In this document: one piece after another, positions 55,153 through 57,014 of the stretch
Numbering within the stretch: position 1 is the stretch's first letter
Layout of the letters: every line of letters begins with the position of its first letter
NCBI GenBank assembly: GCA_024279935.1
Contig: JAJRQZ010000135.1
Location: forward strand, 1-64,000
Reading direction: 5' to 3'
DNA: 64,000 nucleotides
Source of the DNA: Bacteroidota bacterium
GTDB lineage: Bacteria > Bacteroidota > Bacteroidia > Bacteroidales > F082
Made by a program: the position numbers and the translations under genes
The notes under the pieces: model-generated
What the model saw: the letters and a program-made list of their open reading frames with translations, nothing else
Told to the model about the DNA's origin: nothing
The model's database searches: none

Positions 55153-55303
55153 AGCGGGAAAAAGTTGCAAAAGCCTAGTCCATTCCTCTGGCTAAATCTT
55201 TTTTGTTAGTTATACTGTATATGTTAAGACCGTTACAAAAGACAAGAATACTTGTTCATTTTCCTGTTTAAGCAGTTAATGCAATTTCTCAGCAGCTACC
55301 AGT

Positions 55304-56274
55304 TTAGTTTTTTATCAAATATTCTTCAATAATTCTATTAAAAGTGTTCTCATTTATAGGTTTAGGAATAAAATCATTGCAGCCTGCCAAAAACGCCAGT
55401 TCTCTTTTATCATCTGTTGTATAAGCCGTTTGTGCGATAACCGGCAATTCAGGGAAAAGTTTCTTTATTTCCTTTGTCGCTTCAAAGCCATCCATCACGG
55501 GCATTTTCAAGTCCATAAGCACAAGCTCGATTTCTATGTTTTGCTTACAAAGCTCAATGGCATCCAATCCATGTTTTGCATGTAGCAAATGTAAATCCTT
55601 ATCAATTCTTTTCAGTATTGTTTCTATTAATAAATAGTTCAATTCCTCATCTTCTACGATAAGAATCGTATAAACATGATTCTTGATTGTATCCGGTAAG
55701 GCATTATTGATTTTATCATTACTGTTATCGACCAGATTGACAGGCTTATACGGTATTGAGATAATAAATGTCGAACCTTTGTCCTTTTCGGACAAGAGTG
55801 TAATATCCCCCCCCCAGCAGTTTTGTGTTTTCTTTGGCGATCGACAAGCCCAAACCAAGACCTCCGACATTTTTTGTCAGTTGTTTTTTCTCCTGGGAGA
55901 AGCGCTTAAATATAACTTCCTGATTTTTCGGTTCTATTCCAATTCCAGTATCTTTTATATACAAATCAAGCTTGTCGTTTTTTAGGTGATAACCGAATTC
56001 AATAAAGCCCTCAAAAGTAAATTTCAAGGCATTTTCCAGAAGGTTGCTGACTATTTTGTTCATCTTGGTCTTGTCGGCATGTATAGGATGTCCTTTTTGC
56101 CATGCCGGTGGTTATATCAACCCGGGACAGTTCTTCAAGCGATAAGCTGTAAACGGATTCTGTAGTATCGATTTTTTGTGCACATATAAAACATGGGTAT
56201 AGTATGCATGATAAAACAATCGTTTTCAGGAACGAAATATTCTTTCTGATTATGATATTTTGCTTACTATACAT
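55304..56274 (-). pseudogene. Broken hybrid sensor histidine kinase/response regulator
   Basis: Three reading frames are needed. The 5' part (from 56274) encodes a signal peptide and a short SLSLEELSRVDITTG stretch that looks like the start of a TonB-receptor-like protein. Near 56083-56094 it switches frame into a kinase ATPase domain without its HisKA part: ADKTKMNKIVSNLLENALKFT, IKDTGIGI and GGLGLGLSIA. At a run of nine G (minus strand, 55807-55815) the frame shifts again into GDITLLSEKDKGSTF and an intact receiver domain (VLMDLKMPVMDG). Eight G would restore the ATPase/receiver frame. The PAS/HisKA region is missing, so the gene is probably dead. Confidence 0.8.
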
Positions 56275-56679
56275 TTTAAAGGTAGTATGAAGAAAGAGTT
56301 CAATATTTATACGGTTTTTATACTTTGGGCGAGCATTGACTAATATACTTCCTATCAGCATTTTTCTTTAACAACCAAGAACCCATTTCTGTATCTTACT
56401 GATAATCCGACAACTTATCAGCCTCTTTTATCTCCTACATATTCAGTTTTATTTAAAGCCCATCAAATCTACAAAATTTTCCGTACAATAACCAATATCC
56501 TCAAAAAATTCAAGATGCACAGGCCTCGGTTTCTTAAACAAGGAGTTTTTTTGGTTTTTTTTATGGTATCAAACGGGCATATTAAACCCAGGCTATACAG
56601 CATTCCGCGATTAGGGATACTAAGAAAGACAATGTGGGATCCTTCCGAAAAAAAAGCCCTGCGGAAGCGAGGCAAACTG

Positions 56680-56955
56680 TGATCCCGGAAGGACTTCCCG
56701 ATGTCAAAAACCGGGATAGACTTCTCGTCCTCCCATAAAAAAGCCCCGCGGAAGCGAGGCAAACTGTGATCCCGGAAGGACTTCCCGATGTCAAAAATCG
56801 GGATAGACTTCTCGTCCTTCCATAAAAAAGCCCCGAGGAAGCGAGGCAAACTGTGATCCCGGAAGGACTTCCCGATGTCAAAAACCGGGATAGACTTCTC
56901 GTCCTCCCATAAAAAAGCCCCGCGGAAGCGAGGCAAACTGTGATCCCGGAAGGAC
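56680..56955 (-). repeat. Three tandem 87-bp repeats built from the tRNA-Arg 3' end plus terminator
   Basis: Copies of TGATCCCGGAAGGACT, the reverse complement of the last 16 nucleotides of the neighbouring tRNA-Arg, start at 56680, 56767, 56854 and 56941, exactly 87 bp apart; the last is the tRNA itself. Units 1 and 3 are identical and unit 2 differs by three substitutions. Read in the tRNA direction each unit is CAGTTT, a terminator (stem GCCTCGC/GCGGGGC then six T), a spacer with a small TCCCG/CGGGA hairpin, and the tRNA 3' end. A decayed fourth terminator lies at 56650-56673. 87 is a multiple of 3, so ORFs run through the array, but they are by-products. Confidence 0.85.
56911..56934 (-). 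terminator. Terminator of tRNA-Arg
   Basis: Minus-strand stem GCCTCGC/GCGGGGC with a TTCC loop (one wobble) and six T, 6 bp after the tRNA end. Near-identical copies recur at 56824-56847 and 56737-56760. Confidence 0.75.
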
Positions 56956-57014
56956 TCGAACCTTCGACCCGCAGCTTAGAAGGCTGCTGCTCTATCCAGC
57001 TGAGCTACGAGACC
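56941..57014 (-). tRNA. tRNA-Arg (anticodon TCT)
   Basis: A 74-nt cloverleaf on the minus strand. The acceptor stem GGTCTCG pairs with CGGGATC (two wobbles) and leaves discriminator A. D arm AGCTCAGCTGGATAGAGC, anticodon loop CTTCTAA giving anticodon TCT, and T arm GAAGG-TTCGAGT-CCTTC are all regular. CCA is not encoded. A TACTTTTG box lies upstream at 57034-57041 on the same strand. The 267 bp to its right (57015-57281) hold no other feature. Confidence 0.93.

Follow-up and report, generated by a model that had tools for sequence, protein, structure and literature searches.

Arrangements that resemble parts of the one described here are known separately, from the repeats at tyrT, gene-end-replacing mitochondrial elements, integron cassettes and SegB at phage tRNAs. 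The distal repeats of the E. coli tyrT gene (rtT RNA) are 178-bp units that repeat the last 19 nt of tRNA-Tyr. Like the array reported here they are tandem units downstream of a tRNA gene that repeat its 3' end, but they represent one locus, and we know neither of a GAGAAG site in them nor of a report that they form a mobile family. In the mitochondrial atp6 gene of Allomyces, a GIY-YIG element reportedly described by Paquin et al. in 1994 supplies the gene with a new 3' end, the old one being displaced; it shares the new gene end with our elements but is a single insertion in a mitochondrial protein gene. Integron cassettes are bounded by a folded site (attC) whose outer right arm lies in the next unit, and they build mosaic arrays of units with and without genes, as do the cassettes studied here, which however come without IntI, have an outer stem that follows the host tRNA and not a fixed consensus, and have the tRNA T-loop as their point of entry. 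Integrative elements targeting tRNA genes, i.e. islands and satellites, make the tRNA whole again with a 3' end that the element brings, the displaced copy being left behind, but they encode an integrase, whereas the units described below measure 56-145 bp and usually carry no gene. The intervening sequences of 23S rRNA, with their IVP gene, likewise place a hairpin in a structured RNA gene, and an IVP gene occurs in one of our cassettes; the target is a different one, and our elements leave a displaced copy instead of an interrupted functional gene. Finally, SegB of T-even phages is a small, free-standing GIY-YIG homing endonuclease encoded beside tRNA genes that cuts inside them at the motif RAWTSGAAC, and its nuclease activity is required for the tandem amplification of a tRNA-containing segment (PMC13096335). 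By our own reading, the reverse complement of this motif, GTTCSAWTY, would fit the T-loop. SegB differs in residing in a phage genome, in that the whole tRNA is repeated together with segB, and in having neither a palindrome-bearing displaced tRNA end nor gene-less cassettes. We found no description of a tRNA T-loop cassette family in the literature, considering open-access texts only, which is weak evidence of absence; the family is widespread and apparently undescribed.

The window, which is the whole stretch of 64,000 nt analysed here, belongs to a Bacteroidota genome (G000; G, C and L numbers denote genomes, contigs and loci). On its minus strand, an intact tRNA-Arg(TCT) gene is located at 56940-57014 (ARAGORN; 66.4 bits with the Rfam tRNA model), in whose T-loop the junction point described below reads TTCGA|GTCC (58|59). 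Tandem Repeats Finder (TRF) reports one array at 56650-56956 with a period of 87 bp, 3.5 copies, 96% matches, no indels and a score of 586. The two programs thereby confirm the preliminary description of this locus as a tRNA-Arg with three 87-bp tandem repeats of tRNA 3' end, terminator and hairpin, the copy number being the one assembled in a draft genome of 181 contigs. Read on the minus strand, the units start at 56955, 56868 and 56781 (unit 1, 56869-56955; unit 2, 56782-56868; unit 3, 56695-56781) and are followed by a partial terminal copy from 56694 (56640-56694). Each unit contains, in this order, the final 16 nt of the annotated tRNA (GTCCTTCCGGGATCAC), a terminator and a hairpin; in unit 1, these are tRNA positions 59-73, a terminator at about 56934-56911 and the site hairpin. 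Units 1 and 3 are identical, and unit 2, which has the perfectly complementary left arm GGAAGGAC, departs from them at 3 of the 87 positions. The terminal copy comprises tRNA positions 59-73, the terminator and GGAAGGA, and then joins the native flank as in the single-copy locus of the same-genus genome G003. Since it ends soon after the terminator (GGAAGGA, about 56640), it contains no hairpin, and the proposed composition of the unit from a 16-nt tRNA end, terminator and hairpin is therefore correct for the three units but not for the terminal copy.

The hairpins belong to three sites on the minus strand at 56861-56908, 56774-56821 and 56687-56734, each composed of a left arm, the segment GAGAAGTCTA, TCCCG..CGGGA, a single A and tRNA positions 59-66 of the following copy. 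Our covariance model R1 matched sites 1 and 3 with 68.8 bits (E 1.2e-14 each) and site 2, its best match, with 72.7 bits (E 1.0e-15). No nuclease is encoded in the window units, the ORF through the array having no Pfam match. Two frames of 155 and 99 aa stay open across the array (56469-56936, minus strand), because 87 is a multiple of 3; the 155-aa frame has no family match and we judge both to be fortuitous. Another short tandem repeat, with a period of 23 bp and 2.8 copies, is found at positions 66-132 of the window.

The preliminary description had suggested examining the array in relatives, and we did so with G003. The homologous locus (L004), which is 89.7% identical to the window over 7.1 kb on the upstream side of the tRNA and 85% identical downstream, contains one tRNA and one terminator and lacks the array. 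Among the relatives, presence and absence at one site was thus observed between the window genome with three units and G003 with none, in a strain-level comparison that is limited to one genome per species. As the G003 locus is without the repeat, the three units represent extra DNA in the window lineage; judged from the two sequences, they were either gained there or lost in G003, and are not a fixed feature of the tRNA. A separate difference between the two genomes is a deletion of about 7.6 kb in the window (55247-56559, compared with G003 C38), which fused two genes with an overlap of about 10 bp at the joint: the beginning of one for a TonB-dependent receptor-like protein, whose frame is open over 783 codons in G003, and the end of one for a hybrid sensor kinase. 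The decayed genes that had been noticed beside the array are explained by this deletion, which has no demonstrated link to the array.

Comparison of the array with other arrays reveals a constant and a variable part. Among 61 genomes, exact copies of the inner 17-mer occur in arrays only, namely in the window, behind tRNA-Leu(TAG) of the window genome (66-bp period) and behind a tRNA-Leu of G003, and a near copy is located at tRNA-Arg(CCT) of the window genome. In each case the tRNA part corresponds to the tRNA at which the unit lies, whereas the inner part is common. A dispersed repeat was rejected, since with 2 mismatches allowed the 17-mer had real copies at tRNAs only in the 61 genomes, the others lying in coding genes at background level. 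The finding that the same kind of unit contains a different tRNA end at Leu(TAG) and Arg(CCT) of the window genome indicates a general but tRNA-bound family. Occurrence of the unit at unrelated tRNAs or dispersed through the genome had been named as evidence against a tRNA-derived repeat; the former was observed at these two tRNAs, and the family is nevertheless strictly bound to tRNAs.

The anatomy of the site was drawn from eight examples (alignment A2). A left arm of about 8 nt, which is the reverse complement of tRNA positions 59-66, is followed by GAGAAGTYTA, TCCCG-loop-CGGGA, a single A and the tRNA from position 59 onwards. In A2, 95% of the cells pair, and 15 cells are changed on both sides compared with 4.3 in shuffles. 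The outer stem follows positions 59-66 of the tRNA, as in GGAAGGAC/GTCCTTCC and GCAGGGC/GCCCTGC. Pairing of the left arm with the tRNA of its own locus, scored on another 95 sites, reaches 4.66 of 7 positions compared with 3.22 (sd 0.12) for swapped tRNAs and a maximum of 3.65 in 2000 shuffles, i.e. the match to the host tRNA is 12 SD above shuffles. We rejected the possibility that the left arm had been copied from the 5' strand of the T-stem, because the arm also pairs with loop positions 59-60. The duplicated tRNA piece begins at 58|59 at tRNA-Arg, Leu, Lys, Gln, His, Asn, Pro, Met, Gly, Asp, Thr, Ser, Trp and Ile, and at tmRNA. In a search of Rfam 15, the element matched no curated model, the only match being the tRNA itself.

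The family was searched for with R1 and with a separate pattern that contains no tRNA letters. R1 sites were found in 26 of 119 relatives and, applying strict filters, in 17 of 395 genomes that sample the phylum. The tRNA-free pattern matched at least 120 stretches of GTDB genomes; the matches listed are nearly all from Bacteroidota, with Neomarinimicrobiota and Patescibacteria in addition. For the first 80 loci, a tRNA lies at most 700 nt upstream on the same strand in 76 of 96 matches, many of the others being situated at the ends of the sequence stretches examined. Altogether, we found 177 distinct sites with an upstream copy of the tRNA end that follows them; their units span 56-145 bp in 168 of the 177 cases, too short for genes. 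Over three phyla, the site with its tRNA-matched arm is present at some 25 kinds of tRNA and also at tmRNA. The match in Magasanikbacteria is probably not a stray Bacteroidota contig, since its tRNA has an encoded CCA, unlike the Bacteroidota tRNAs examined. Patescibacteria-type genomes of roughly 1 Mb (G513, G514; L336-L341 and L342) contain up to six elements each. At the tmRNA genes L095 (G007 C62), L100 (G102 C13) and L112 (G163 C2), the same element is positioned at the T-arm of the 3' end. At tRNA-Lys(CTT), it is the 5' part of the tRNA that is tandemly copied upstream of the gene (L295 in G018, L087 in G084, L086 in G020), with a D-loop palindrome TCCCGATA..TATCGGGA, a mirror-image version. 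A phage origin was rejected, as 2.9 million viral contigs yielded a single match, a chance one in a coding gene. No common passenger gene was found either, the neighbours of 193 loci being ordinary chromosomal genes.

Several observations bear on movement of the units. Related loops occur at different tRNAs of one genome, i.e. Leu(taa), Lys(ttt) and Ile(tat) in G514, Thr(tgt) and Leu(tag) in G540, and Arg(ccg) and Leu(tag) in G528. Mosaic arrays exist in G538, with units of 80, 197 and 87 bp that have the tRNA end and the site in common and differ in their bodies, and in G439, where units of 109 and 168 bp alternate. Other arrays, including that of the window, are near-uniform, many with identical neighbours, from which we conclude that local copying occurs too. 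Gene-carrying versions were also observed. The 576-bp cassette L163 contains a 23S-IVP gene, L356 two tandem units with a complete GIY-YIG gene in each, and L111 a GIY-YIG fragment. A cassette of about 1.95 kb behind tRNA-Leu(TAG) (L421 14474-16510, G147) encodes an ImmA/IrrE-type peptidase and a DUF4411 PIN protein. In L247 (230-7270), tRNA-Met is followed by two successive units of 1967 and 5008 bp that are bounded by GAGAAG sites and carry Fic-type defence genes on the opposite strand, SoFic (PADLOC E 2.8e-102) and PDC-S24 (E 2.2e-186).

Small GIY-YIG proteins were surveyed with the profile A3, which matched in 45 of 61 relatives and, in a sample of the whole phylum, in 86 of 148 genomes; because it was seeded by locus G137 C16, this locus counts in both evidence sets. 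Of the best 60 GIY-YIG loci, 46 have a tRNA immediately upstream of the gene on the same strand, usually at a distance of 35-65 nt, and in 33 the gene is followed by a displaced tRNA 3' end. None of 16 control loci, 10 for Y1 transposase and 6 for integrase, had a tRNA in that place. Often a palindrome, commonly TCCCGA..TCGGGA, stands in place of the T-loop, the anticodon arm or both in the displaced end. At GIY-YIG loci of G122, G261, G124 and G207, hairpin and tRNA end meet at CGGGAA|59, the same junction as in the window. Behind tRNA-Met, L409 (G006 C1:2733657-2735942) contains seven tandem 356-bp units; every one of them has a GIY-YIG gene together with a tRNA end whose anticodon arm holds a palindrome. 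G060 has three tandem gene-carrying GIY-YIG units. The window genome itself possesses a GIY-YIG locus of this kind at tRNA-Asp (G000 C33). Most GIY-YIG elements are without the left arm and GAGAAGTTTA. The constant 58|59 junction would be consistent with the T-loop-like motif of SegB.

On balance, we lean towards reading the window array as a miniature mobile cassette without genes, present in three tandem copies and belonging to an integrase-less T-loop family that would spread in a homing-like manner, probably by GIY-YIG cleavage in trans. Of the components of this reading, we infer with good confidence that the T-loop cassette is mobile; that a small GIY-YIG nuclease is the mobiliser is a plausible assignment about which considerable doubt persists. 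The cassette would insert at 58|59 in the T-loop of a tRNA or tmRNA gene and supply its own copy of tRNA positions 59-73, often together with a terminator, so that the upstream tRNA would stay whole. It would end in the conserved hairpin site, which parts it from the displaced old tRNA end, and fuller relatives carry genes between tRNA end and hairpin. With the T-loop of the upstream tRNA intact, more cassettes could enter at the same point, and recombination between the direct repeats could copy or lose units, by which arrays would form; the three window units could stem from one insertion with subsequent tandem duplication, units 1 and 3 being identical. The small GIY-YIG nuclease may cut the T-loop, repair copying the cassette in, and may act in trans on gene-less copies. 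It would be the most economical mobiliser, since it accounts for the T-loop as target, for the replacement end, for the disabling of the displaced T-loop and for the stacking. A point against it is that few GAGAAG-type units carry GIY-YIG and most of the cargo found consists of other genes. Moreover, the simple homing model has no need of a conserved left arm, and a tRNA-matched left arm is easier to account for with a folded recombination site of the integron type.

The main rival to GIY-YIG homing is accordingly a system of integron-like cassettes, in which a recombinase acting in trans, e.g. a Xer-like tyrosine recombinase, exchanges strands at 58|59 of a folded single-stranded site and inserts circular cassettes. 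We consider it rather unlikely but substantial. Its folded site would comprise the stem of left arm and tRNA 59-66, a conserved bulge, the inner hairpin and a variable loop, an architecture of two stems, unpaired spacer and variable loop that parallels attC, with the outer right arm in the next unit. The tracking of the tRNA by the left arm is what such a site needs; mosaic arrays, site-bounded cargo units of 2-5 kb and tyrosine recombinases in 8 of 8 genomes tested fit as well, and unit 2 folds as single strand with z = -3.8, yet unit 1 folds weakly (z -1.0). Furthermore, the attC consensus (RYYYAAC/GTTRRRY boxes) is absent, the outer stem following tRNA 59-66 instead, and the units carry no integrase, none adjoining them except at the ends of unrelated islands. 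Integrases also enter the reading first suggested for this locus, scars of repeated integration and excision of tyrosine-integrase islands at a tRNA att site. Repeated insertion at the 3' part of the tRNA indeed fits, att sites are classically found at tRNA 3' ends and integrase islands exist at some of these tRNAs, but the att cores of the islands differ and often begin in the anticodon arm, only a handful of about 190 loci have an integrase, and the viral contigs gave no real element. The search for integrative elements at these tRNAs in relatives, also proposed at the outset, did reveal tyrosine-recombinase islands, which proved to be separate insertions that displaced pre-existing arrays (G018, G031, L164, L190). 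In G018 and G031, islands part tRNA-Lys from its array, which is now at the far end; since the islands leave the array at their distal end, the array predates them. An att origin of the arrays was rejected on examination of the islands at G003 C95/C96, G018, G031, L164, L179 and L190, which are later, separate insertions, and no integrase and att core common to element and islands was encountered. At tRNA-Arg(CCT) of G003, an island with a type I restriction-like gene apparently lies between element copies (L071 12463-14560, C95; L072 15400-16313, C96). We regard integrase scars as disfavoured and improbable; reviving them would need an integrase gene whose attP contains GAGAAGTTTATCCCG.

Local copying alone, i.e. 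a chance duplication of a tRNA end with slippage or unequal recombination and no mobile family, draws on the identity of units 1 and 3 and on the identical neighbours of many arrays. The slipped replication considered earlier is a fitting contributor and may set the copy number in the window, but it is contradicted for the family, since the same site, its arm matched to the tRNA, recurs in three phyla at tmRNA and some 25 kinds of tRNA, which makes it very unlikely as the whole explanation. Equally poor chances are given to a structured RNA or tRNA 3'-end decoy with a function in tRNA processing or in tRNA-targeting defence: paired arms covary, and some loci have no terminator between tRNA and array, but in most loci, that of the window among them, the site comes after a terminator, bodies and loops show free variation, G003 lacks the array and Rfam offers no match. 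Least credible, and mostly refuted, are REP-like hairpins moved by a Y1 (RAYT/IS200-type) transposase and inserted 3' of TTCGA. The hairpin with its conserved 5' segment and Y1 genes in 25 of 31 relatives would suit them; however, G513, G514 and G517 carry 3, 6 and 8 sites without a Y1 gene, ten Y1 loci have no such hairpin, and REPs are dispersed, whereas the sites are bound to tRNA and tmRNA genes.

Returning to the mobile T-loop cassette, we tentatively suggest, at slightly less than even confidence, a phylum-wide cassette system in tRNA T-loops with a tRNA-matched folded site, in which a recombinase or nuclease in trans would insert, stack and shuffle cassettes that are mostly empty and sometimes carry anti-phage or toxin-like genes. 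If true, this would constitute a second class of mobile DNA at tRNA genes besides integrase islands in Bacteroidota and their neighbours, in which tiny cassettes land in the universal T-loop and mend the tRNA on entry. Orphan 3' ends of tRNAs and tandem repeats of tRNA ends would then have an explanation, free-standing GIY-YIG genes would be linked to chromosomal tRNAs in the way that SegB is linked to those of phages, and defence genes such as SoFic would have a route of movement.
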